From the NCBI GenBank assembly GCA_937926445.1, contig CALBAK010000008.1, positions 1 to 64,000 of the forward strand: a stretch of 64,000 bases of DNA. Reading direction: 5' to 3'. The position numbers and the translations under genes are program-made. This document shows, piece after piece, positions 23,255 to 54,917 of this stretch (positions are counted from its first letter, which is position 1; every line of letters begins with the position of its first letter). Below the pieces are notes generated by a model that was given only the letters and a program-made list of their open reading frames with translations, was not told the origin of the DNA and made no database searches. The stretch comes from an uncultured Alphaproteobacteria bacterium (GTDB lineage: Bacteria > Pseudomonadota > Alphaproteobacteria > Geminicoccales > Geminicoccaceae).

Positions 23255-23284
23255 GGCTCCTCCCGCGGGCGGCGGCCGCCGACC

Positions 23285-23368
23285 TCAGAGCTCGGCCGGC
23301 AGGTACATGGTGACCTCCATCCCGACGGGACGGCTGGTCACCCGCGGACGGATCCACGTCTTGCGCAT
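23285..23368 (-). CDS. pqqA: PqqA, 27-residue precursor peptide of PQQ
   Basis: The peptide runs from MRKTWIRPRV to MYLPAEL and contains the essential EVTMY core: Glu and Tyr with three residues between, whose side chains become the PQQ backbone. It is 27 residues, within the usual 22-30. It sits directly upstream of pqqB in the same direction with a purine-rich GGGGAGTGG before the ATG. It is short and easily missed by gene callers. Confidence 0.93.
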   Translation of the reverse strand: MRKTWIRPRVTSRPVGMEVTMYLPAEL

Positions 23369-23425
23369 CGTTCCACTCCCCGATCGCATCGTGCTCGCCA
23401 CCCGAGGATCCGGGCGGCTCTCCGC

Positions 23426-23454
23426 TATATGGATCTCGTCACCGGGGACGTCGA
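23426..23454 (-). promoter_or_regulatory. Candidate sigma70-type promoter of pqqABCDE
   Basis: On the minus strand TCGACG (23449-23454) is followed after 17 bases by CATATA (23426-23431), an otherwise rare AT-rich hexamer in this region. This would start transcription about 50 bases before pqqA. The -35 is 5 of 6 to TTGACG, the -10 is weaker. Confidence 0.4.
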
Positions 23455-25438
23455 CTTTTCTCGATCATGCAGGTTCACTTATGGGCCGACCGTGCGCCGC
23501 CCGTCGGCCGGCCCGCCCTCGAAGGTGCGGTAAGCGGTTCCTGCGGACTTTGCTCGGGCCCGAATCGCCCGAAGGCGGCGTACCGTGCCCGTCGCCCGGG
23601 CGCGCGCGGCTCGGTGACAGCCGCGCTTGCGAATCCCCGCGATCAGATCCGAACTCCTCCGCTTCGAAGCAGCGCCTTCGGCTTCCGGCCCCGAGGCCGG
23701 GGCCGTGTGACGGAAGCGAGACGACCCGCTCCGCCTCGCTGCTCGGCCGGTCGGCCGATCCGGCGGGTGGATCGCTGCGCCGCCCAGCGCGGATCGTGTT
23801 CACCTCGACCCGAGGTCGGGAGCCTCGTTGTGTTGCGAGTCCTTCCGGATCGCATGCCGAACACGGCTCGCCTTCGACCAGGGCCCATGGTCCGCTCGAC
23901 ATCGCCTGCGACCAGAAAGGCCGGAAGGTCGAGCGGACAGCGGCCAACACGGCCGGAGCCAGGCAGACGAACCGTCCGAGAAACGAAGGCGGGCGAGGCG
24001 GGGCCGCGATCCGCTCGAGCGCGGGCGAGCCCGACCCGGCCACGGCGAGTGCCACGCCCTTGTACGCCGAGAGGAATAGGACCGAGACGAGCATGGGTGG
24101 ATCCCTCGGGGCTCGGGAAGAGCGTACTGGCCAAGGGTTAACGAATCCTCACCGAGAAAGGGATCGGCCACCCGGATCGCGGCGTCCCGCTCCGGGTTTC
24201 CGACGTTTCGAGCCGGGTCGGCGAGGGAGGTGGAACGCCGCCCACCGGGAGTGTCGGGTGCGCCTCACAGTCGCTGCCGACGGCAGGGACATCGAGGGAT
24301 GCCCGAGCGAAGCGAGCGAGCCGTCGGCCTCTTGCGGCCGCCCGAGGCCGCGTCGGCGAGGGGTCGTCGAAGCCGCGACCCGTCGCCGCCGACATCCCCG
24401 AGGCCACCGGCCGAGTCGGTTCGCGGTTTCCGGCAAGACGGACCTCGACCGTTCGTCCGTCGTGTCACCCGATCGGTCCGCCCCACCGCTCGCCCGGCTC
24501 GAAGCGTCGCGCTGCGCCTCCGCCCATCGCAGCCGGCGCGCCACCTGTCGGGAGACCATCGCGCCGAACCGGTCCGAGGCGAGGTACGCTTCAGCTCCCG
24601 CAGATCCGCCTCTGTTGGCCGACGACGTCGGCCGACCGGCTCGCCGACGAGTACGATCGCGCCCGTCGGTTCGCGATCGACTGGCCATCGAGGGCGGGTG
24701 TCGAAGCGGCTCTCCAGCATCTCGGGTCCCGCCGCTCGACCGGGCTCTCGAGCGCTACACTCGGGAGCGCGACCCGGCCGCGACCCGCGCCGGCGGAGGG
24801 GAGCGGCCTTGGCGGGGCCCGACCGACGGGACCCCGTCGTGGCGCGCCGCCGCGGTCCCCGTCGCACTCCGGGGGCGCGGAATCGAAAGCCGGCGAAAGC
24901 CCCGCCTGCTCCGCCGGACCGGCGGGTGAGCACGCCTCCTCTTCGCGACCCGTCCCCTCGGCTGGCCCGTCCGATGTCGAGACGGCCCGAGGCGAGCGGG
25001 AGGAAAATCCGGGGCGGCTCGGCGATTCGCCGTACCTGCGACGGGTCCCGCGGAGCCGTGCCCGGCGAGTCGATATCCGAGCCGGTGCACCTGGTCGCGG
25101 GTGTCGGACGGTACCGGTCGGCTTTCCGGAACACGCCGCGCCGATGTGACCCTGTCACCGGCTGTACTGCCGTCACCGCTCGGGGTGCGCGGCTGCTCGG
25201 CGATCCTCGCACCCACTCGGGGTCGGATCTGGGCGATCGATCTGCGGAACCGAGCCGCCGACCGGTCCCAGGCGCGGCGCGACGCGCGGAGTTCGCGGGT
25301 CCCCGATCCATCCGGCGCGCTCCGAGAGCCGCACCCGCCGGTTTCCTCGGGCGATCGGTGGTCGATCGGCCGCCCGGTTCACCAGCACGTGCCTCGAGCG
25401 GCTCTCGCCCGCGCGGTCGCATGCCGCGCGGGTATCGC
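23455..25438. other. Two-kilobase stretch without a credible gene
   Basis: Between the pqq promoter and the LysR gene there are many open frames on both strands, but none shows domain-like sequence; their translations are Arg/Pro/Ser-rich and change character every few dozen residues. I found no RNA gene, transposase or tandem repeat. The only local structure I can point to is a CtrA-like box near 24138 with a small hydrophobic open frame behind it, listed separately. It may be a decayed accessory segment. Confidence 0.5.
24035..24152 (-). other. Candidate small membrane-peptide locus C behind a CtrA-like box
   Basis: TTAA-N7-TCAC at 24138-24152 resembles the CtrA recognition pattern TTAA-N7-TTAA. 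On the minus strand an ATG at 24094 lies 43 bases further, preceded by GAGGGA and followed by a hydrophobic stretch MLVSVLFLSAYKGVALAVAG. The frame stays open for 209 codons, but only the first ~20 residues look protein-like. The same layout recurs at 28.8 and 54.9 kb. Confidence 0.3.
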
Positions 25439-26521
25439 TCAGCCCGCCGAGCGGGCGAGGACGAAGGGCGGTGGGGGTGTCGCCGGCACGAGCTCGAGCC
25501 GCAGGGCCGCCGCCGCCAGCGCGTCGAGGAAGGTCCGAAGAGGCTCCATCTGCCGGCGGTGCGACGGTACCAGCGCCACCAGCCGGCGCTCCATCGTCGG
25601 CACGGCATACAGCCGCACCCGGAAGAGCATCCTGCCGGCGAGCTGGGCGGTGAGCTGCGGGACGAGCGCCACGCCGTGGCCGCCCTCGACCATGGCGAGC
25701 GCCGTTTCGTAGGTGCGTACCCTGGCCACCGTCCGGGCCCAGGGCAAGACCCTGCGGTACCATTCGGCGATCCGGTCGGCGTGCAGCGTGCCGAAATTGA
25801 ACTCGATCGTCCGGCCGAGCACGGCTCTGGCCGCCGCGTCGAGCTCGCGTTCCGGCTCGACGATACCGTCGAGCACGATCCCGTCGGGAACGGCGAGCGC
25901 GTAGCCGTCGACGCGGAGGGGCCGCCGGGCGAAGGGCAGATGGTCGCTCGCCACCGCCGTCTCCGAGACCACGGCGACGTCGAGGGTCCGGCCGTAGAGG
26001 CCTTCAACGGCCTCCTGCGGCGCCACCTCGTGCACGTCGAGGGCGAGCTCCGGAACCCGCGCGCGGGCCTCGGCGAAGGCCGTGGGCAAGAGTGTGCGGG
26101 CAATCGAGGCCAGGGCACCGACCGCGACCCGGCCCCTGAGCCCGGCCTTGTAGGCGGCGAGCCCGCTCTCGAGCGCATCGGCCTCGGCCAGGAGCCGGCC
26201 CGCCCGCTCGAGCAGGAAGCGCCCGGCATCGGTGAGCACGAGGCGGCCCGACTGGCGGTCGACCAGCCGGTGCCCCAATAGCCGCTCCAGCTTGGCGAGC
26301 GCCTGCGAGAGCGCCGGTTGCGAGATGCCGAGCTGCTTGGCCGCCTGGGTCAGCGAGCGGGCATGGGCGAGGGCCCAGAAGAGCCGCAGCTGGTGCAGGC
26401 TGACGGCGAGCGTCTGCCCCCGTCCCTCGCCTCCGGGCGCCGCACCGGCCTCGTCCGGAACCGGTCGGCCGGCCTCGGGCACCTCCAATGCCGCCGGATT
26501 CGAGCCGTCCTCGTCGCGCAT
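25439..26521 (-). CDS. LysR-type transcriptional regulator
   Basis: 360 residues. The winged helix-turn-helix (HQLRLFWALAHARSLTQAA, LGISQPALSQALAKLE) begins after an unusual ~40-residue acidic, Gly/Pro-rich N-terminal extension, and the rest is the type 2 periplasmic-binding effector domain. The ATG at 26521 has a strong GGGAGGGGAGG in front, so the extension appears genuine. It is divergent from the amidohydrolase gene with 121 bases between, the classic LysR arrangement, so it probably regulates that gene and the ABC ATPase behind it. The effector is unknown. Confidence 0.9.
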   Translation of the reverse strand: MRDEDGSNPAALEVPEAGRPVPDEAGAAPGGEGRGQTLAVSLHQLRLFWALAHARSLTQAAKQLGISQPALSQALAKLERLLGHRLVDRQSGRLVLTDAGRFLLERAGRLLAEADALESGLAAYKAGLRGRVAVGALASIARTLLPTAFAEARARVPELALDVHEVAPQEAVEGLYGRTLDVAVVSETAVASDHLPFARRPLRVDGYALAVPDGIVLDGIVEPERELDAAARAVLGRTIEFNFGTLHADRIAEWYRRVLPWARTVARVRTYETALAMVEGGHGVALVPQLTAQLAGRMLFRVRLYAVPTMERRLVALVPSHRRQMEPLRTFLDALAAAALRLELVPATPPPPFVLARSAG

Positions 26522-26642
26522 CGCCTCCCCTCCCGAACCGAGCCTGCCGTGGCCCCGGCCGGCGGTCCAGCCCCCGTAGACGCTTGACCGCGCCGGCGTG
26601 CGGCGCGAGGGATCGCCCGAGAGCCCATTCGGGAGAACCGCC

Positions 26643-27893
26643 GTGATCGGAGCCGAGGCCGGCAATCTGCGGATCGACGCCCGCCGTTACTGGGATTCGC
26701 TCATGGAGATGGCGAAGATCGGGGCCACTCCCAAGGGCGGTTGCAACCGACAGACGCTCACCGATCTCGACCGCGAGGGGCGCGACCTCTTCCGGCGCTG
26801 GTGCGAGGCGGCGGGCTGCACCGTAACCGTCGACGAGATGGGCAACATGATGGCGCTGCGACCCGGCCGCCGGCCGGATCTGCCGCCGGTGGCGATCGGC
26901 AGCCATCTCGACACCCAACCGACCGGCGGCAAGTTCGACGGGGTCGCCGGCGTCCTGGCCGGTCTCGAGATCGTGCGTACCCTCGCCGACGCCGGCTACG
27001 AGACCGACCATCCGATCCTGGTCGTGAACTGGACCAACGAGGAGGGCACCCGGTTCGCCCCGGCGATGCTCGCTTCGGGTGTGTTCGCGGGTGCCTTCAC
27101 CAAGGAATGGGCCTATGCCCGTACCGACCGCGAGGGCAAGCGGTTCGGCGACGAACTCGAGCGGATCGGCTACAAGGGAACGCTGCCCTGCGCCCCGCAG
27201 CGTTGGAAATGTCACCTCGAGTTGCACATCGAGCAGGGTCCGATCCTCGAGGCCGAGGGCAAGACGATCGGAGTGGTGACCGGCGCCCAGGGCATTCGCT
27301 GGTACGAGGTCCGGATCACCGGGAAAGAGAGCCACGCCGGCTCGACGCCGATGCCGCGCCGCAAGGACGCGCTCGTCGCCGCCGCGCGCGTGATCGAGGC
27401 GCTCGACGGGCTCGCCCGCGGGCACGGGCCACACGCGGTCGCCACGGTGGGCGTGCTCGAGATCGCGAAACCGTCGCGCAACGTGATTCCGGGCGAGGTC
27501 TTCTTCACGATCGACCTGCGCCACCCCGAGGACTCCGTCCTGGCCGAGCTCGACCGTGCCGTGCACCGGATCGTCGGCGAGGCCTGCGTCCGCGACGGCC
27601 TCGCGTACACGGTCGACCCGATCTGGCACTTCCCCTCGGTGCGCTTCGACCCGACCTGCGTGGCGGCGATCCGCGCGGCGGCGGAGGCCGGCGGCTTTTC
27701 CTGGCGCGAGATGGTCTCGGGACCCGGCCACGATTCCTGCTACACGGCGCGCGTCGTCCCGACCGCGATGATCTTCGTTCCCTGCCGCGACGGCCTCTCC
27801 CACAACGAGGAGGAGTGGGCCGAGCCCGAACATCTGGCGGCCGGCTGCCAGGTGCTGCTGCAGGCGGCGCTCACGCTCGCCCGCGCGGACTGA
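26643..27893 (+). CDS. M20-family amidohydrolase (N-carbamoyl amino acid hydrolase / allantoate amidohydrolase type)
   Basis: 416 residues with family landmarks: GSHLDTQPTGGKFDGVAGVL (first metal site and bridging Asp), NWTNEEGTRFAPAMLASGVF (catalytic Glu and metal ligand), HIEQGPILE, and GPGHDSCY plus GLSHNEEEW near the end. Members hydrolyse N-carbamoyl amino acids, beta-ureidopropionate, allantoate or ureidoglycine derivatives; which one cannot be fixed. Starts at GTG 26643 with GGGAG upstream. The gene is divergent from LysR and followed after 12 bases by an ABC ATPase, suggesting use of an imported pyrimidine, hydantoin or purine breakdown product. Confidence 0.9.
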   Translation: MIGAEAGNLRIDARRYWDSLMEMAKIGATPKGGCNRQTLTDLDREGRDLFRRWCEAAGCTVTVDEMGNMMALRPGRRPDLPPVAIGSHLDTQPTGGKFDGVAGVLAGLEIVRTLADAGYETDHPILVVNWTNEEGTRFAPAMLASGVFAGAFTKEWAYARTDREGKRFGDELERIGYKGTLPCAPQRWKCHLELHIEQGPILEAEGKTIGVVTGAQGIRWYEVRITGKESHAGSTPMPRRKDALVAAARVIEALDGLARGHGPHAVATVGVLEIAKPSRNVIPGEVFFTIDLRHPEDSVLAELDRAVHRIVGEACVRDGLAYTVDPIWHFPSVRFDPTCVAAIRAAAEAGGFSWREMVSGPGHDSCYTARVVPTAMIFVPCRDGLSHNEEEWAEPEHLAAGCQVLLQAALTLARAD

Positions 27894-27905
27894 CCGGAGC
27901 CCGCG

Positions 27906-28736
27906 ATGGCGCAACTGGCCAGCGCCGCCGCGTCCTCGCGCGGTGCGACCGAGCTCGGACGGTGCCCGGCGGTCGAGGCGCGCGGTCTCGGCCTCACCTT
28001 CGCCACGGCCGCGGGGCCGGTGACCGCGCTCGCCGGTGTCGATCTCGTGATCGAGCCCGGCGCCTTCGTGGCGCTGATCGGGCCTTCGGGCTGCGGCAAG
28101 ACGACCTTCCTGCGGCTCGTGGCCGACCTCGAGCAGCCGACCGCCGGGACGCTCAGAGTCGAGGGCCTCGCACCGCGCGAGGCGCGCCTCGCTCGCCGCT
28201 ACGGCTACGTCTTCCAGGCGCCGGCGCTGCAGCCTTGGCGCACGGTCGAGCGCAACGTCACCCTGCCGCTCGAGATCATGGGCTTCTCGCCCGAGGAACG
28301 GGCGGCACGCGCCCGCCGCTGGCTCGCCCTCGTCGAGCTCGAGGCCTTCGCCCGGCACCATCCCTGGCAGCTCTCGGGCGGCATGCAACAGCGCGTGTCG
28401 ATCGCTCGGGCGCTCGCTTTCGAGCCCGACATCCTGCTGATGGACGAGCCCTTCGGCGCGCTCGACGAGATCACCCGCGATCGGCTCAACCTCGAGCTGC
28501 ACCGGCTCTGGCGGCGGACGGGCAAGACCATCCTCTTCGTCACCCATTCGATCGCCGAGGCGGTCTATCTCGCCACCCGGATCGTCGTGATGTCGCCGCG
28601 GCCCGGCCGGATCCTCGAAGTGATCGACAGCCCGCTGCCGGTCGACCGGCCGCTCGAGCTGCGCGACACACCGGAATTCCTCGCCGTGGCGCACCGCGTG
28701 CGCGAAGGTCTGCGCGCCGGCCACTCCTACGATTGA
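27906..28736 (+). CDS. ABC transporter ATPase (SsuB/TauB/ThiZ-like), orphan
   Basis: 276 residues with Walker A GPSGCGKTT, Q-loop VFQAPALQPWRT, signature LSGGMQQR, Walker B ILLMDEPFGALD and the switch histidine in FVTHS. The sequence is of the taurine/sulfonate/nitrate/pyrimidine-precursor importer group, in which the ATPase gene normally sits with a permease and a binding protein. Neither partner is present: the next gene is gyrB on the other strand. It may work with permeases encoded elsewhere, or the rest of the operon has been lost. Confidence 0.9.
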   Translation: MAQLASAAASSRGATELGRCPAVEARGLGLTFATAAGPVTALAGVDLVIEPGAFVALIGPSGCGKTTFLRLVADLEQPTAGTLRVEGLAPREARLARRYGYVFQAPALQPWRTVERNVTLPLEIMGFSPEERAARARRWLALVELEAFARHHPWQLSGGMQQRVSIARALAFEPDILLMDEPFGALDEITRDRLNLELHRLWRRTGKTILFVTHSIAEAVYLATRIVVMSPRPGRILEVIDSPLPVDRPLELRDTPEFLAVAHRVREGLRAGHSYD

Positions 28737-28872
28737 CACGGCGCGGCCCGTCGCCGCGGCGAGCAACCCGGCGAGCAGGAGAGCGACGAGCGAGCCCAGT
28801 CCGATCCCGAACACGACACCTCGCGACCTCGGCCGCGATCCTTCTCGCAGGGAAAGGTTGAGGAAGCGTTAA
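28737..28872 (-). other. Candidate small membrane-peptide locus A behind a CtrA-like box
   Basis: On the minus strand TTAA-N7-TCAA (28858-28872) is followed after 43 bases by a GTG at 28814 with GAGG just before it. The first residues, FGIGLGSLVALLLAGLLAAA, are strongly hydrophobic. The gap ends at the stop of the convergent ABC gene 78 bases from that GTG; the frame has no stop before entering the antisense of that gene. Layout matches loci at 24.1 and 54.9 kb, so a small gene or a shared element is possible; not proven. Confidence 0.35.
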
Positions 28873-47507: not shown

Positions 47508-48489
47508 TTGCACCTTCTCGAGGTCGAGAACCTGTCCGTCGCCTTCTCGGGCGACGGTCGCCTCCTGCCGGTGCTCGACGGGGTGAGCCTCGAGCTCGAC
47601 GCCGGCCGCACGCTCGGCCTCGTCGGCGAGTCGGGCTGCGGCAAGAGCCTCACCGCCCTCGCCGTCATTGGCCTCCTACCGCGCCCGCAGGCAAGGGTGA
47701 CGGCCGGTGCCGTCCGCCTCGAGGGGCGCGATCTCCTGCGCCTTTCCGACCGCGCGCTCCGGACCTTCCGCGGCTCCCGGATGGCGATGATCTTCCAAGA
47801 GTCGATGAACTCCTTGAATCCGGTCCTGTCGATCGGCGCCCGGCTCGTCGAGGTGATCCGCCGGCACCGGCGCGTCGGCCTGAAAGAGGCTCGGGAGCGC
47901 GCCCTCGAGATCCTCGCTCGGGTGCGCGCGAGCGAGCCCGCTCGCCGGCTCTCCCAACACCCGCACGAACTCTCGGGCGGTCTCCGCCAGCGGGTGATGA
48001 TCGCCATGGCGCTGGTCAACCATCCGGCGCTCCTGATCGCCGACGAGCCCACCACCGCCCTCGACGTCACCATCCAGGCCCAGATCCTGGAGCTGGTCCG
48101 CACGCTCCAGGTCGAGACCGGCACCGCCGTCCTGCTGATCACCCACGATCTCGGCGTGGTCGCCGAGACCGCGCAGGAGGTCGCGGTGATGTACGCCGGG
48201 CGGATCGTCGAGCGGGCCCCGGTGGATGCCCTGTTCGCCGATCCGCAGCACCCGTACACGATCGGCCTCCTGGGCTCGATCCCGCGGCTCGACCGGCGGG
48301 TCGGCCGCCTCGCCGTGATCCCGGGTGCGGTGCCCTCACCCACCGCCCGGCTCGGCCTGCCGCTTCGCCGACCGCTGCCCGCTCGCGACCGCCCGCTGCC
48401 GAGCCAGGCGGCCGACCTTGCGCCCGCTCGCCGGCGGCCACCTCGTCGCCTGCCATCGGGCGCCGATCGAGGCGCGGGTGGCGGCATGA
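47508..48489 (+). CDS. Dipeptide ABC transporter ATPase OppD/DppD, +1 frameshift near the 3' end
   Basis: Walker A GESGCGKS (~40), Q-loop IFQESMNSLNP, signature LSGGLRQRV, Walker B LLIADEPTTALDVT and switch VLLITHDLG are intact. After VIPGAVPSP the frame loses family character, while the +1 frame from ~48343 reads CRFADRCPLATARC and HLVACHRAP, the conserved Cys-rich oligopeptide-ATPase tail, and stops at 48487-48489, overlapping the next ATG as ATGA. So a single-base insertion (or two-base loss) separates the tail from the protein. As sequenced the frame runs on into the next ATPase. TTG 47508 is my start; ATG 47457 is an alternative. Confidence 0.82.
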
Positions 48490-49595
48490 ACCCGGTGCTT
48501 CTGGAGGCCCGGGGCCTCCGCCGCCATTACCCGATCGGCCGAGGACTGTGGCTCGGTCGGCGCGGCCGGCTCCTGCGCGCGGTCGACGGCCTCGACCTCG
48601 AGGTCCGGCTCGGCGAGACGCTGGCCGTGGTCGGCGAGTCGGGCTGCGGGAAGTCGACGCTCGCTCGCCTCCTCCTCCGCCTCGAGCGACCCGATGCCGG
48701 CACGCTCCGCCTCGACGGGATCGACCTCGCGAGCCTGCCCGAGCGCCGGCTGCGACCGCTCCGTCGCCGCCTGCAGATCGTCTTCCAGGACCCCTATGCT
48801 TCGCTGAACCCGCGGCTCCCGGTAGTAGCGGCCCTGCTGGCCGAGCCCCTGCTCGTCCACGACCTCGGCGGAGCGACCGAGCGGCGGGCAGGGGTCGCCG
48901 AGCTCATGGACCTCGTCGGGCTGCGCCCGGCTCTCTCGGGCCGCTTCCCGCACGAGTTCTGGGGCGGCCAACGCCAGTTGGTGGCGATCGCCCGAGCCCT
49001 CGCCACCGGCCCGGAGCTCCTGGTCGCCGACGAGCCGGTCTCGGCGCTCGACGTCTCGGTCCAGGCCCAGGTCTTGAACCTGCTCGCCGACCTGCGCGCC
49101 CGGCTCGGCCTCGCGCTCGTGCTTGTCACCCACGATCTGGCGGTGGTCCGTTACATGGCCGATCGGGTCGCGGTCACGTATCTCGGCAAGATCGTCGAGC
49201 GCGCGCCGGCCGAGGCGCTGTTCTCGGCGCCGCGCCATCCCTACACCCGCGCGCTCCTCGCCGCCGTGCCGCGCCCGGACCCGGCGCGTGCCGGCAGCCG
49301 ACGGATCCTCGAGGGCGAGTTGCCGAGCCCGGTCGACCCACCCTCCGGCTGCCGATTCCGCACCCGCTGCCCGTTCGCCCTGGTCGATTGCTCCAGGCTG
49401 GAGCCGGCGGTCGAGGAGGCGGCCCCGCGCCACGATGTCGCCTGCCTGCGCGCGGCCGAGCTGCCGGCACCCGAGCCGCTGCCCGTGGCACCCTTGCCGG
49501 CGGCGCTCGCGCGCCGGCTCGCCCTGCTCGAGGCGGTCCGCGACAATCCGCCCGCGGAGTGCCGGAGCGCGAACGTCGCGAGGGAGGGACCGCGC
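48486..49595 (+). CDS. Dipeptide ABC transporter ATPase OppF/DppF, no stop before oppA
   Basis: Starts at ATG 48486. Walker A GESGCGKST, Q-loop VFQDPYASLNPR, signature FWGGQRQLV (a variant of LSGGQRQ), Walker B LLVADEPVSALDVS and LVTHDLAVVRYMADR are present, and the Cys-rich tail CRFRTRCPFALVDC is in frame. The expected end is near 49500-49590, yet no stop codon occurs in this frame until 51123-51125, so the frame continues into the binding-protein gene; the end given here is the base before that gene's ATG. An automatic caller would probably report one ~1200-codon gene for this and its neighbours. Confidence 0.85.
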
Positions 49596-51125
49596 ATGCG
49601 CAAGACCCGGCTCGGGCGGACCACCGCTCTGCTGTTGACCGCCTCGACCCTGTTCGCCGCCGGAGCCGGCGCAGCCGGGATCCGGATCGGCATCCAGGAG
49701 GACCCGGACAAGCTCGACCCTAAGGTGGCCCGCACCTTCGTCGGCCGGATCGTCTTCGCCTCGCTCTGCGACAAGCTCGTCGACATCACGCCCGGGCTCG
49801 ACTACGTGCCGCAGCTCGCGACCTCCTGGAGCCTCGCCGACGACGGCCGGACGTTGACCTTCGAGCTGTGGCCGAACGTCCGCTTCCACGACGGGACCCC
49901 CATGGACGCGGCCGCGGTGGTGACGAGCCTCGAACGGCACCGGACCATGAAGGGCTCCAACCGGGCGAGCGAGATCCGCCCGGTCCGAAAGGTCGTGGCG
50001 ACCGGCCCGCTCGGCGTCCGCCTCGAGCTCGACCGGCCCTTCGCGCCGCTCCTCGCTCAGCTTTCGGATCGAGCCGGCATGATCCTCTCGCCTACCGCGC
50101 TCGCCAAGGCCGAGGCCGAGGGCGAGGACTTCGCCCTCCAGCCGGTCTTTGCCGGGCCCTTCCGCTCCGAGGAGCGGGTGGCGGAGGACCGCATCGTCCT
50201 CGAGCGCTTCGCCCACTACTCGGACGAGGAGCGGATCGCCCTCGACCGCATCACCTTCCTGCCGATCCCCGACCAGAGCGTACGCCTCGCCAACCTCCGG
50301 TCGGGCGATCTCGATCTGGTCGAGCGGCTCGCCCCGCAGGACCTCGACCAGGTCCGCAGCGACCCGCGCCTTTCGCTCGTCACGATCGGCTCGCTCGGCT
50401 ACCGGGGCATCACCTCCAACCTCGGCAACGGGCCGTGCGCGCGATCGCCGATCGGCCAGAAGCGCTGGTTGCGGGAAGCCTTCGCGCTGGTCCTCGACCG
50501 CCGGGTCTCGAACGACGTCGCTTTCCGGCGCGCGCACCTCGTCGGCAACCAGCCGGTCAGCCCCGAGAATCCCTGGTATCACGTGGGTCTGCCGATCCCC
50601 GTCCGCGACGTCGAGCGGGCCCGGGCTCTGGTCCGGACGGCCGGCTTCGAGCGAGTCCCGGTCGAGCTCGTGATCCCGAACAATCCAGAGACCCCGCGGG
50701 TGGGCGAGATCGTCCAGGCGACGACCGGCGAGGCCGGCTTCGACGTCGAGCTGCTCGCGATCGAGTTCGCGGCCGCCCTCGACCGGCAGACCAAGAGCGA
50801 TTTCGAGGCGTTCCCGATCGGCTGGTCCGGTCGCACCGACCCGGAAGGGAACATCCACGTCTTCACCGAGAGCAGGGGCGTCCTCGACGACGGCGAGTAC
50901 AGCGACCCCGAGGTCGACCGGCTGCTCGAGGAGGCTCGCATCGCGAGCGATCCGGCCGCCCGCAAGGCGCTCTACGCCGAGGCCTTCGAGATCTTCGTGG
51001 GCCGCGACCGGCCGCGCATCTATCTGTACCAGCAGCGCTGGCTCTGGGCGCATCGCCAGGAGGTCGAGGGCTTCGTCCCCCATCCCGACGGGCTGATCCG
51101 CCCGCAGGGCGTCGGCAAGGGCTGA
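49596..51125 (+). CDS. Dipeptide-type ABC transporter substrate-binding protein (SBP_bac_5)
   Basis: 509 residues from an ATG with GGGAGG eight bases upstream and a clear signal peptide (LGRTTALLLTASTLFAAGAG). Family features include LATSWSLADDGRTLTFEL and VRFHDGTPMDAAAVVTSLER, then the long two-lobed fold. Ligands of this family include di- and oligopeptides, glutathione and nickel chelates. Its own ribosome site and signal peptide argue that it is made separately even though the reading frame is continuous with oppF. Confidence 0.9.
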   Translation: MRKTRLGRTTALLLTASTLFAAGAGAAGIRIGIQEDPDKLDPKVARTFVGRIVFASLCDKLVDITPGLDYVPQLATSWSLADDGRTLTFELWPNVRFHDGTPMDAAAVVTSLERHRTMKGSNRASEIRPVRKVVATGPLGVRLELDRPFAPLLAQLSDRAGMILSPTALAKAEAEGEDFALQPVFAGPFRSEERVAEDRIVLERFAHYSDEERIALDRITFLPIPDQSVRLANLRSGDLDLVERLAPQDLDQVRSDPRLSLVTIGSLGYRGITSNLGNGPCARSPIGQKRWLREAFALVLDRRVSNDVAFRRAHLVGNQPVSPENPWYHVGLPIPVRDVERARALVRTAGFERVPVELVIPNNPETPRVGEIVQATTGEAGFDVELLAIEFAAALDRQTKSDFEAFPIGWSGRTDPEGNIHVFTESRGVLDDGEYSDPEVDRLLEEARIASDPAARKALYAEAFEIFVGRDRPRIYLYQQRWLWAHRQEVEGFVPHPDGLIRPQGVGKG

Positions 51126-51146
51126 GCGGCCGGGCGGCGCGGCGCC

Positions 51147-52088
51147 TTGCTCGAGGCGATCGCCGGCCGGCTCCTGATCGCGGTGCCGACCGTTCTGCTC
51201 GTGAGTGTGATCGTCTTCGCCCTCCAGCTCCTTCTGCCGGCCGATCCGGCCCTCGCACTGGCCGGCGAGGAGCGCGACCCCGTGGCGATCGCCCAGATCC
51301 GCGCGCTTCACCATCTCGACCGGCCGATCCCGGTCCGGCACCTCCTCCGGCTCGCTGGCCTCGTGCGGGGCGATCTCGGCACCTCGCTCGAGACCGGCCT
51401 GCCGGTCGCCGAGCTCATCGCCTCCGAGCTCCCCGTGACGATCGAGCTCGCGCTGCTCGCCATGCTCGTGGCGCTGGCGATCGGCATCCCGGCGGGCGTG
51501 GCGGCGGCGGTCCGCAAGGGCGGGACGATCGACGCCGCCGCCAATCCCGTGGCGCTCGCCGGCATCTCGATCCCCAACTTCTGGCTGGGAATCGTGCTGA
51601 TCCCGCTCGTCTCGGTGCGCTGGAACCTCTTGCCCGCCTCGGGTTACACGAGCCCCTTCGAGGCCCCTGTCCGCATCCTGCAGACGACGATCGTGCCGGC
51701 CTTCGTGCTCGGCACCGGCATCGCCGCGGTGATGATGCGCCACACCCGAAACGCCATGCTGACCGTCCTGCGCCAGGACTACGTCCGCACCGCCCGAGCG
51801 ATGGGCCCGACCGAACGGCGGGTCGTCGGCCGGCACGCGCTCCGGAACGCTCTCCTGCCCGTCGTCACCCTCGGCACCCTCGAACTCGGCACCCTCCTTT
51901 CGGGCGCCGTGCTCACCGAGCAGGTCTTCACCATCCCGGGCTTCGGCGAACTCGTGGTCGATGCCGTCTTCACCCGCGACTATCCGGTGGTCCAGGGCGT
52001 GGTCCTGTGCGCCGGCCTCGGCTTCGTCCTCATGAGCCTGCTCGCCGACCTGCTCTACGTCGTCCTCAACCCCAGGCTGCGGACCTGA
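51147..52088 (+). CDS. Dipeptide ABC transporter permease (DppB/GsiC type)
   Basis: 313 residues with six membrane helices; the first, LLIAVPTVLLVSVIVFALQL, and the EAA loop RQDYVRTARAMGPTERRVVGR are family features. It starts at TTG 51147, 21 bases after the binding-protein stop, and is followed after 3 bases by the second permease. It forms the membrane channel with the DppC-type partner. Confidence 0.91.
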   Translation: MLEAIAGRLLIAVPTVLLVSVIVFALQLLLPADPALALAGEERDPVAIAQIRALHHLDRPIPVRHLLRLAGLVRGDLGTSLETGLPVAELIASELPVTIELALLAMLVALAIGIPAGVAAAVRKGGTIDAAANPVALAGISIPNFWLGIVLIPLVSVRWNLLPASGYTSPFEAPVRILQTTIVPAFVLGTGIAAVMMRHTRNAMLTVLRQDYVRTARAMGPTERRVVGRHALRNALLPVVTLGTLELGTLLSGAVLTEQVFTIPGFGELVVDAVFTRDYPVVQGVVLCAGLGFVLMSLLADLLYVVLNPRLRT

Positions 52089-52091
52089 GCG

Positions 52092-52961
52092 GTGGCCACC
52101 GCCCTCGCCCACGCCGAGCCCGAGCCGGCGCCGAGCCTCCGGCTGGGCCGCCGGCTCGCCCGCAACCGTCTGACCCTCCTCGGTGGGACGGTCGTCCTTC
52201 TGTTCGTCCTGGTCGCCCTCTTCGCCCCGTTCCTGGCTCCCTTCGATCCGATCGAGAGCAACTGGCTCGCGGTCCGCAAGCCGCCTTTCACGACCTTCTG
52301 GCTGGGCACCGACGAGCTCGGCCGCGACATCCTCTCGCGCCTGATCTGGGGTGATCGCGCTTGGCTGCTCGCGGGCGTCCTCCCGGTCGCCATCGCCGTG
52401 GTCGTGGGCGTGCCGTTCGGCATCCTCGCGGCCTATGTGCGCGGTTGGGTCGACGCCCTGATCGGGCGGCTCACCGAGGCGCTGCTGGCCTGCCCCTTCC
52501 TCATCCTGGCGATCGCGCTCGCGGCCTTTCCCGGGCCCTCGCTCGGCAACGCCACGATCGCGATCGGGATCTCCGCCACCCCGATCTTCGTCCGCCTGGC
52601 GCGTGGCCAGACCATGGCCGTACTCGCCGAGGATCACGTCTTGGGCGCCCGCGCCGTCGGCTGCCCGCACCGGTGGATCGTGCTCGTCTACGTGCTGCCG
52701 AACATCGCCGCCCCGATCCTCGTGCAAGCCACCCTCGCGATCGCCGGGGCGATCATCGCCGAGGCCTCGCTCTACTTCCTCGGCCTCGGCCAGCAGCCGC
52801 CCGCCCCCTCCTGGGGCAGCATGCTCAATACCGCCAAGAATTTCATGAGCCAGGCGCCTCGGATGTCGGTCTCGCCCGGGCTCGCGATCGGCCTCGTCGT
52901 GCCGGCCTTCGACCTTCTCGGCGACGGTCTCCGGGACGCCCTCGACCCGCGCGAGAGCTGA
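52092..52961 (+). CDS. Dipeptide ABC transporter permease (DppC/GsiD type)
   Basis: 289 residues, starting GTG 52092, with the N-terminal OppC extension (RLARNRLTLLGGTVVLLFVL), the periplasmic FWLGTDELGRDILSRLIWG signature of this group and the EAA loop EDHVLGARAVGCPHRWIV. It pairs with the preceding permease. The typical C-terminal LLGDGLRDALDPR is intact. Confidence 0.92.
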   Translation: MATALAHAEPEPAPSLRLGRRLARNRLTLLGGTVVLLFVLVALFAPFLAPFDPIESNWLAVRKPPFTTFWLGTDELGRDILSRLIWGDRAWLLAGVLPVAIAVVVGVPFGILAAYVRGWVDALIGRLTEALLACPFLILAIALAAFPGPSLGNATIAIGISATPIFVRLARGQTMAVLAEDHVLGARAVGCPHRWIVLVYVLPNIAAPILVQATLAIAGAIIAEASLYFLGLGQQPPAPSWGSMLNTAKNFMSQAPRMSVSPGLAIGLVVPAFDLLGDGLRDALDPRES

Positions 52962-52985
52962 ACAGTCGACCACGGAGGAGCGCAC

Positions 52986-54782
52986 ATGAGCGGCTTCAAC
53001 ACCCGGCCCGTGATCAGCGGCACTTTCGGGGTGGTGGCCTCGACCCACTGGATCGCCTCGCAGGCCGCCATGCGGATGCCGGAGCTGGGCGGCAACGCCT
53101 TCGATGCGGCGGTCGCCGGCGGCTTCACCCTGCAGGTCGTCGAGCCGCACCTCAACGGTCCGGGTGGCGACATGCCCGCCATCCTCTGGGACGCAAGCGG
53201 CCGCCGCGTCCGCGTCCTCTGCGGCCAAGGGCCGGCCCCCGCCGCCGCGACGATCGAGGCCTGCCGGGAACTCGGGGTCGACGGGATCCCCGACGACGGC
53301 CTGTTGCCGGCGGTCCTCCCCGGTGCCGTCGACGCCTGGCTCCTGCTCTTCCTCGAGCACGGCACGCTCGATCTGCGAACCGTCCTCGAGCCCGCGATCG
53401 CCTATGCCCGGGAGGGGCACCCGCTGCTCCCCCGTGCCGTCGCCACCATCGCCGGGCGGGCCGACTGGTTCCGCGCCCACTGGCCGAGCTCGGCCGCGCT
53501 CTGGCTGCCGGACGGCGCGCCGCCGGTGCCGGGCAGTCTTTTCCGCAACCGCCCGCTCGCCGCCACATGGGAGCGTCTCGTGGCCGAGGCCGAGGCTGCG
53601 GGAGGTGCGCGCGAGCGGTGGATCGAGGCCGCCCGGCGGGCCTGGCGGGAGGGCTTCGTCGCCGAGGCGATCGACCGTTTCTGCCGCCGCACCGAGGCGA
53701 TGGACTCGCTCGGCGGGCCGCACCGGGCCTTCCTGCGCGGCGCGGACCTCGCGGCCCGGAGCGCCTCCTTCGAGGAGCCCGTCACGCTCGATCTCGGCCG
53801 CCTGCGCTTCTGCAAAACGGGCCCCTGGGGCCGGGGCCCGGTGCTCCTGCAGACCCTCGCCATCCTCGAGGGCACCGGCATCGAGGCCGCCGACCCGCTC
53901 GGGCCCGATTTCGTCCATCTCGTGATCGAGGCGCTCAAGCTCGCGATGGCCGACCGCGAGGCCTTTTACGGCGATCCCGCCTTCGTCCGGGTCCCCCTCG
54001 ACCGGCTCCTCGACAGGGACTACGCGGCCGATCGACGGCGGCTGATCGGCCCCGAGGCGAGCGGCGATTTCCTGCCCGGCTCGATCCCCGGATTCGAGCG
54101 GCAGCGCGCGCTCGCCATCGAGGGCTGGCGGTGGGCCTGTCTGGAAGAGGGCCCGATCGGCACCGAGCCGACCTTCGGGCATCTGCAGGAGCCGCGCGGC
54201 CGCGGCGACACCTGCCACATCGACGTGGCCGACCGCTTCGGCAACCTGATTTCCGCCACCCCCTCGGGCGGCTGGCTGCAGTCGAGCCCGACGATCCCCG
54301 AACTCGGCTTCTGCCTCGGATCGCGCGGCCAGATGTTCCGCCTCGAGCCGGAGCGACCGGACGCACTGGCACCCGGCAAGCGGCCGCGCACCACCCTCTC
54401 GCCCACTCTCGTCCTCGAGGACGGCGAGCCCCGGCTCGCCTGTGGCACGCCCGGCGGCGACCAGCAGGACCAATGGCAGCTCGTCTTCCTGCTGCGCCAC
54501 CTGTTCCACGGCCTCGATCTGCAGGCGGCAATCGACGCGCCGCTCTTCCACGGCGAGCACTGGCCGCTCTCCTTCTGGCCGCGCCGGGCCAGGCCCCGCT
54601 CGGTGCCGATCGAGGACCGGTTCGCCTACGCCACACTCGAGGAGCTCTCCCGCCGCGGCCATCGCCTCGCGATCCGGGAGGGCTGGTCGATCGGCCGGCT
54701 CACCGCCACGGTGCGCGCGGGCGGGGTTCTGGCCGCCGCCGCCACGCCGCGCCAGATGCAGGCCTACGCCGTCGGCCGCTAG
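52986..54782 (+). CDS. Gamma-glutamyltransferase-family Ntn hydrolase
   Basis: 598 residues. The autoprocessing and catalytic threonine is in GRGDTCHIDVADRFGNLIS, followed by SPTLVLEDGEPRLACGTPGG, as in GGT-fold enzymes; the N-terminal half holds MRMPELGGNAFDAAVAGGF. No export signal is evident, so it is probably cytoplasmic. Members cleave gamma-glutamyl bonds or related amides (for example cephalosporin acylases). Placement directly behind a dipeptide/glutathione-type importer suggests it processes the imported compound. Confidence 0.88.
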   Translation: MSGFNTRPVISGTFGVVASTHWIASQAAMRMPELGGNAFDAAVAGGFTLQVVEPHLNGPGGDMPAILWDASGRRVRVLCGQGPAPAAATIEACRELGVDGIPDDGLLPAVLPGAVDAWLLLFLEHGTLDLRTVLEPAIAYAREGHPLLPRAVATIAGRADWFRAHWPSSAALWLPDGAPPVPGSLFRNRPLAATWERLVAEAEAAGGARERWIEAARRAWREGFVAEAIDRFCRRTEAMDSLGGPHRAFLRGADLAARSASFEEPVTLDLGRLRFCKTGPWGRGPVLLQTLAILEGTGIEAADPLGPDFVHLVIEALKLAMADREAFYGDPAFVRVPLDRLLDRDYAADRRRLIGPEASGDFLPGSIPGFERQRALAIEGWRWACLEEGPIGTEPTFGHLQEPRGRGDTCHIDVADRFGNLISATPSGGWLQSSPTIPELGFCLGSRGQMFRLEPERPDALAPGKRPRTTLSPTLVLEDGEPRLACGTPGGDQQDQWQLVFLLRHLFHGLDLQAAIDAPLFHGEHWPLSFWPRRARPRSVPIEDRFAYATLEELSRRGHRLAIREGWSIGRLTATVRAGGVLAAAATPRQMQAYAVGR

Positions 54783-54917
54783 CCGGCCGGCCACGGCGCG
54801 CAGCACCGCCTGCCCGAGGCCGAGGAGCAGAGCCGACAGGAGACTCACGAGGAATGCCAACGATATCCCTCCGCCTGCCGGTTCCCTTGTCGCTCGGAAA
54901 GGTTGACGAAAGGTTGA
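54783..54917 (-). other. Candidate small membrane-peptide locus B behind a CtrA-like box
   Basis: Minus-strand TCAA-N7-TCAA (54903-54917) is followed after 42 bases by a TTG at 54860 with GGAGGG six bases before it. The first residues AFLVSLLSALLLGLGQAVLR are hydrophobic. The convergent gene's stop lies 78 bases from that TTG, the same distance as at the 28.8 kb locus. There is no stop before it enters the antisense of the upstream gene. The string shared with locus A (GGAAAGGTTGA and neighbours) supports a common element. Confidence 0.35.

Follow-up and report, generated by a model that had tools for sequence, protein, structure and literature searches.

The closest described relatives of the loci reported here are the promoters of the CtrA regulon, long antisense transcripts of the excludon type, antisense overlapping genes and the antisense tethers proposed under the heading of transertion. 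In Caulobacter, 107 cell-cycle-regulated antisense starts are reported, 23 of them with core-regulator sites (PMC4287350). CtrA regulon promoters (TTAA-N7-TTAA) share with the present loci the box, a spacing like that found before the pilin-like and flhB-like genes of the same host, and a genome that encodes CtrA; they differ in that the present loci are directed into other operons from the 3' end, with no conventional gene under their control. In the excludon and other long antisense RNAs (PMC7154746, as far as the available text of that source goes), an antisense transcript runs over a neighbouring operon, as is predicted here; the differences are that here the antisense strand is an open frame from a dedicated leader, and that no adjacent real gene is served, except for serC and perhaps in the copy L156 (both described below). 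The antisense overlapping genes of E. coli O157:H7 (pop, asa, ano) likewise are open frames antisense to known genes, but pop and ano are described as single genes (603 and 186 bp), whereas the loci considered here share one architecture as a dispersed family, with frames that reach 2,265 codons. Published speculation has antisense ORFs tethering genes to the membrane by transertion (PMC10400600), and a membrane-binding nascent chain from the antisense strand is what the present loci would also produce. That proposal, in its available part, is built on codon metrics inside genes and does not seek antisense ORFs that span gene boundaries; unlike the ORFs it treats, the present loci carry box, ribosome site and leader within the gap, and their frames stay open across operons. 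Among the matches listed for CtrA and transertion, none appears from its title and the beginning of its abstract to describe such loci, and on the same basis none of those listed for antisense with CtrA, excludons or antisense overlapping genes was alike.

The window, that is, the whole 64,000-nucleotide stretch of DNA analysed, carries two clear copies on its minus strand. At 28.8 kb, a full CtrA-type site (TTAACGCTTCCTCAACC, 28856-28872), identified by reading the sequence and by pattern count, is followed by a GAGG ribosome-binding-type sequence (28819-28822) and a GTG at 28814, 43 nt past the TCAA of the box, which opens a frame with the N-terminal sequence VFGIGLGSLVALLLAGLLAA. The leader occupies the gap (28737-28814), carries a transmembrane segment at residues 4-20 (IGLGSLVALLLAGLLAA), scores highest of the six frames and runs in register for 26 codons to the stop of the convergent gene at 28736. 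The entire stop-free antisense frame (26004-28814, 936 codons) spans both convergent genes and some 200 codons more: an ABC transporter ATPase on the plus strand (27906-28736), assigned by family search and read in register, and an M20 peptidase, the second gene of the pair, also on the plus strand and in register (26598-27893; the gene finder places its start at 26643). At 54.9 kb, the full CtrA-type site (TCAACCTTTCGTCAACC, 54901-54917, found in the same two ways) precedes a GGAGGG ribosome-binding-type sequence (54867-54872) and a TTG at 54860, 42 nt past the box, with the N-terminal sequence LAFLVSLLSALLLGLG. Its leader (54783-54860, transmembrane segment LVSLLSALLLGLGQAVL) again fills the gap with 26 codons up to the convergent stop at 54782, in register. 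The stop-free frame of 2,174 codons (48336-54860) spans the convergent gene, a gamma-glutamyltranspeptidase (GGT; plus strand, 52986-54782, by family search and register reading), and two more genes, and ends within a fourth; the three genes preceding GGT (52092-52961, 51147-52088 and 47508-51125, plus strand) keep its register, so that all four convergent genes share one. The ribosome-binding-type sequences were read directly. No Pfam family matched the product of the 28.8-kb frame or the first 787 codons of the 54.9-kb frame. Intrinsic terminators closing the window frames were considered and rejected: terminator-like sites number 2 against 1.0 expected at 25.5-29.0 kb, one of them on the antisense strand (27348-27334), and 0 against 1.8 expected at 47.0-55.2 kb, and counts so near expectation give no clear sign of an early end to the frames.

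The initial annotation had proposed one geometry for three loci, of which the box, the distance of 43 or 42 nt, the start, the ribosome site and the leader stand at 28.8 and 54.9 kb and fail at 24.1 kb. There, the box that had been given (TTAA-N7-TCAC) lies on the plus rather than the minus strand; the minus strand has a half-site alone (TTAACC, 24141-24136, with GTGA in place of the first half) 43 nt 5' of the ATG at 24094. This site scores 13.0 on the weight matrix described below, compared with 19.4-31.7 for the 23 sites that define it. The frame (23465-24094, minus strand) has a hydrophobic start, gives no Pfam hit, meets a stop after 209 codons and faces no convergent gene, and its standing as a full member of the family is doubtful. 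About 2.2 kb around it (23255-25438) are free of predicted genes, and none of the long frames tested in that interval matched a Pfam family. The 78 bases that had been noted from start to convergent stop are exact at both of the other loci; the shared value is a coincidence (57-429 in the other loci), while its divisibility by 3 is not.

Control by a CtrA-like regulator, as had been suggested, gains support. The pattern TYAAN7TYAACC occurs 25 times in the 3.71-Mb window genome against once for the reversed pattern, and 76 times against 9 in five congeners. All six genomes encode a CtrA-like protein with 62-64% identity to Caulobacter CtrA; that of the window genome is 63% identical to the Caulobacter protein and reaches 384.6 bits with NCBIfam NF045991, above the cut-off of 350. 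The best GyrB match among those listed is likewise 63% identical, in a list from which near relatives may be left out. The box also stands before genes of ordinary kind, one starting at 43 nt that we take to be a Flp pilin and one starting at 47 nt that is presumably the FlhB C-terminal domain; other boxed genes we assume to encode a GGDEF protein and a D-Ala-D-Ala carboxypeptidase. The ortholog, the enrichment and these neighbours together make CtrA-type control of the loci probable. Further CtrA-type boxes (L016, L029, L030, L032, L035 and others) are followed at the usual distance by no recognised gene and by no leader frame.

The repeated geometry that had been taken for the sign of a family extends well beyond the window. 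Among the 101 distinct exact boxes of the window genome and the five congeners, each compared with its own mirror image as control, 41 are followed at a distance of 38-50 nt by a start with a ribosome site (mirror image, 7); 19 of these also open with hydrophobic residues (mirror image, 1), and in 18 the frame, besides, reaches 200 codons or more without scoring as a normal gene (mirror image, 0). Leaving out the hydrophobic condition gives 25 against 0, some of these 25 being ordinary genes. The 18 comprise 16 antisense copies, so that the proposed genome scan for box and spacing did yield more copies, together with one copy that reads into serC and one (L201) that is an ordinary EAL-domain gene. 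A mobile or repeat element, the other origin that had been put forward, was rejected: the copies share only the box, the spacing, the start, the character of the leader and the reading phase, with no evident sequence in common beyond these when the copies are set against one another, and several are kept in place across species.

The set on which the remaining counts rest is larger and was assembled in two steps. The first 20 loci with a convergent gene (19 exact boxes and L146, with one mismatch) were picked by eye on distance and hydrophobicity, and some lie below the automatic thresholds; the listings used displayed frame lengths, while the register was not visible at picking. Five loci, three of them found without any filter on length, were added as orthologs or by scanning with box weights: the TPP and his copies of congener G004, the methylcrotonyl-CoA carboxylase (MCC) copy of G002, and two new G004 copies from a weight-matrix scan of 1.28 Mb. 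The matrix was built from 23 sites (21 loci, the serC copy included, plus the TPP and his copies of G004), and because some of these lie in the scanned sequence, only the two new G004 copies count as independent finds. The display filter of that scan asked for at least 150 codons with a ribosome site, or for hydrophobicity, and admitted the G004 41.3-kb copy by length; the G002 MCC locus came through a filter of more than 250 codons. Omitted by eye, as ordinary sense genes or internal sites with a start at 39-52 nt, were L023, L026, L028, L037, L157, L159, L187, L190, L199, L220 and L226. Also outside the family are L172, L176 and L201, which are called sense genes, and L183, whose start lies within a gene; L182 (where the contig breaks off after 64 codons) and L222 (a frame of 277 codons that is not hydrophobic and matches no family) were left out of the count, as were the serC copy (L154) and the gyrB locus of G001 (L152), which are without a convergent gene. 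As the species share ancestry, the 25 loci correspond to about 14 independent places. From the box to the start the distance is 39-49 nt, except in one weak copy, where it is 33 or 51. Convergent genes among the first 20 encode an ABC ATPase, gamma-glutamyltranspeptidase, a TPP enzyme, RimO, a short-chain dehydrogenase, a squalene/phytoene synthase, a LysR protein and a small membrane protein, and, recurrently, PurH (three species), HisA with HisI/HisE domains (two), methylcrotonyl-CoA carboxylase (four) and DctM (two). One convergent gene of each kind was checked by Pfam/NCBIfam, the small membrane protein excepted, and orthologs were recognised by eye; this check covers the named convergent genes, and gene borders come from our own gene finder.

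Picking by eye from listings that displayed frame lengths invites the explanation that chance and composition suffice, hydrophobic starts with open frames having simply been selected from a genome of 73% GC. Against this stand the register, hidden at picking, the automatic count of 18 against 0 in the mirror image, and the agreement of the five further loci, three of them found without a length filter; we regard such an origin as very improbable indeed.

The register is the most regular property of the family. In all 25 loci (20 of 20 in the first set), the distance from the leader start to the convergent stop is divisible by 3, so that the leader frame is in register with the convergent gene; since the G002 MCC and G004 41.3-kb copies had passed a length filter that favours this register, the fair form of the test is 23 of 23. 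Ordinary start codons in such gaps divide evenly among the three registers (436, 407 and 381 of 1,224), and orthologous gaps vary in length by multiples of 3 (201/153/207, 147/99 and 195/279). Stops make up 0.8% of gap codons, yet the 25 loci have none in the 1,489 codons that lead from the start to the convergent stop, where about 12 would be expected. In this 73% GC genome, the in-register antisense frame contains 0.11% stops per codon and is fully open in 73 of 100 genes, whereas the other two antisense registers close after about 45 codons; the loci thus always use the register that is open. Adjacent codirectional genes generally share a register in 116 of 461 pairs. In G004 (L250, about 41.3-48 kb), six consecutive codirectional genes in one register lie beneath an antisense frame of 2,196 codons.

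These figures bear directly on the small membrane peptides that the initial annotation had suggested. In this explanation the peptides would be young, the leader alone would matter, and the absent stop would be a by-product of GC-rich antisense strands, whose in-register frame is indeed naturally open to the extent just given. It leaves unexplained the constancy of the open register (23 of 23), frames much longer than those of in-register controls, and openness in a register that is not favourable, and we consider it unlikely. No stop occurs in the gap in any of the 25 loci, and the shortest frame facing a convergent gene has 209 codons, and small peptides were rejected as the full explanation; the lack of a stop codon in the gaps, which had been put down as a weak point and is true at 28.8 and 54.9 kb, is the rule of the family and not a flaw.

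The length of the frames was compared with that of controls, namely other genes followed by a gap, taken from 0.88 Mb of two species. Past the convergent stop, the median open run is about 1,290 codons in the first 20 loci and 319 in 202 controls, and runs of at least 900 codons are found in 14 of 20 loci as opposed to 16 of 202 controls (Mann-Whitney p = 1.1e-7 for the 20 loci, 8e-4 for the shortest member of each of 12 locus groups and 0.003 for the six loci of the window genome alone). The longest frame, L151, has 2,265 codons counted from its start. By the borders of our gene finder, 19 of the 25 frames pass the far end of the convergent operon; five end inside it, at 54.9 kb (fourth gene), in L146 (209 codons), L212 (422) and L161 (within a gene truncated where the contig ends), and in the 121-kb copy of G004 (second gene). 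The remaining frame runs off the stretch that was read.

Orthologous operons with and without the box offer a second comparison. Downstream of GGT, the box is found in the window species only, and the antisense frame there stays open for 2,148 codons past the stop; in four congeners, whose 450 nt downstream showed neither a full box nor a leader, it closes at 626, 626, 781 and 168 codons. Over the TPP operon, the two species that have box and leader show 973 and 1,024 open codons, against 626 and 784 in two that lack them; in G001, where the gap ends 21 nt past the stop at a contig end and leaves the box state unreadable, 1,448 codons are open, and in G005 the gene is split over contigs. The second TPP gene stands in the same unfavourable register in all TPP operons compared. 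Such a register is a demanding one, since genes of 240-330 residues contain about five stops in it on average and only 7 of 190 are free of stops. hisF, which stands in it, contains no stop in three boxed species and five each in G003 and G005; G005 shows no box in the 250 nt available, and the gap of G003 falls outside the comparison. In G002, hisF is stop-free though its gap lies off the contig. The enoyl-CoA hydratase gene of the MCC operon, also in the unfavourable register, is stop-free in five species, all with a leader frame, including G002 despite its weak box and leader. Shared ancestry of G000, G001 and G004 may account for part of these observations. As judged from the sequence comparisons, selection on the open antisense frame is well supported.

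The leader shows a different kind of constancy. In 17 of 21 loci (exceptions: L224, L170, L221 and L203), the first twenty codons score best of the six frames in the leader frame, with a score that is positive in 14 and negative in seven. In most leaders, no more than a few residues separate the start codon from the hydrophobic span; summed over the 21 loci, net charge is +2 in the 65 residues before the span and +51 in the 315 after it, and by the positive-inside rule this charge distribution would place the N-terminus outside and the growing chain in the cytoplasm. Some leaders, those of the G004 his locus and of L203, look amphipathic rather than transmembrane. Hydrophobic starts are rare in gaps (8 of 1,224 start codons), and four of these have a ribosome site, three of the four being loci of this family. 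Leader and linker sequences can hardly be aligned between orthologs, and their membrane-binding character alone is conserved.

Long frames behind a promoter-type box, a ribosome site and a start are what genuine overprinted genes would look like, their long antisense products being functional membrane-anchored proteins, and E. coli antisense genes with translation evidence have been reported (PMC7103648). The tails, however, are complementary to some fourteen genes unrelated to one another, no Pfam family matched the tested parts of the two window frames, and leaders and linkers barely align between orthologs, which makes a family of such proteins improbable.

Taken together, these features are best accommodated by a membrane-anchored antisense translation of the transertion type, in which the length of the frame and not the sequence of the product matters; we put the probability of this reading at roughly 0.4. 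A CtrA-type promoter behind a gene cluster would point back into the cluster and fire an antisense transcript, which would be translated from the start downstream of the box. The leader, usually transmembrane and with its positive side inside, would enter the membrane on emerging while the ribosome continues, in register and without meeting a stop, along the antisense strand of the operon. Gene, polymerase, ribosomes and nascent chain would thereby be kept at the membrane as long as CtrA is active, and the antisense transcript, which its ribosomes would protect from Rho, would also impede the operon beneath. That translation itself rather than its product is what is sought is suggested by the missing Pfam matches of the two window frames, the unrelated genes beneath, and the serC and L156 copies. 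Against the reading weigh the five frames that end within the operon, the leaders that score poorly or look amphipathic, and the two stop-free genes of G002, with a gap off the contig and a weak box; ordinary membrane-protein genes could, moreover, serve as tethers too, so that dedicated ones need a reason.

A simpler proposal keeps the impediment and drops the anchor: the CtrA promoter would silence the convergent operon by antisense interference over its whole length, translation would merely guard the RNA from Rho, and the leader would be incidental or an aid to disposal. The 19 of 25 frames that reach past the far end of the operon speak for it, as do the operons targeted repeatedly across species (MCC in five genomes, purH in three and his in three, counting all loci) and the cell-cycle-regulated antisense starts reported for Caulobacter (PMC4287350). 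It leaves the recurrent membrane leader without a role, the targets have no evident common theme, the serC copy enters a sense gene and L156 continues in frame through the next sense gene. Interference of this kind is possible, though we would not expect it to prove the full account. Because the features ask for translation of the antisense strand and not for a specific product, membrane-anchored coupled transcription and translation is favoured over simple silencing; anchored translation and antisense silencing are not mutually exclusive.

A more far-reaching form of the anchoring proposal would make the loci a set of dedicated, CtrA-fired tethers between DNA and membrane, pinning the chromosome at chosen times, with operon codons and gene spacing adapted to keep the frame open; the sole product of the loci would then be a nascent chain with a membrane leader, translated as far as possible along the antisense strand. 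We consider this extension rather doubtful. In the closed genome of G004, the GC skew of 25 sampled stretches was too noisy to place the replication terminus, relative to which the loci were to be located.

Copies that depart from the common plan show which of its elements can vary. In the serC copy (L154; L285, G000 C16), a CtrA-type box and leader lie 116 codons upstream of, and in frame with, serC, and the frame would yield a membrane-anchored form of SerC; as this copy reads in frame into a sense gene, it is the open frame that is indispensable and not its antisense position. In L156 (L268, G001 C21), a frame of 1,671 codons crosses the operon, joins the next gene on the same strand (551 codons) in frame and ends at its stop. 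After gyrB in G001 (L152/L131), at the place of the 28.8-kb locus, a degenerate box and a GTG remain, but no gene converges on them, and the frame, not clearly hydrophobic, ends after 65 codons; it looks as if the element decays where the opposite gene is missing. In eight genomes of other genera, no clear copy was found among the 30 boxes read of 85, a weak test of spread since the box is weakly enriched there (85 against 25 reversed, and in some genomes without any enrichment). One locus in another genus (L331, G012) has a CtrA-type box followed at 44 nt by an ATG with a ribosome site; its beginning is moderately hydrophobic, and at least 486 codons are open. It gives no family match on either strand and is out of register with the longest antisense stretch opposite. 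Another from these genera (L334) lacks a leader, and its long frame shows weak sense-strand similarity to glycosyltransferases. It may be that the family does not extend beyond the genus of the window genome.

What these loci suggest is that translating the "wrong" strand can be useful to the cell. Whether antisense translation is purposeful, and whether transertion can be encoded as opposed to incidental, are standing questions on which the family bears, in several species and with box-less orthologs as natural controls. A single stop codon that leaves the sense product unchanged would put both to the test. For the biology of GC-rich operons, an open antisense frame that reaches from a leader in the gap across whole gene clusters would offer an additional possible reason for the choice of codons and the spacing of genes.
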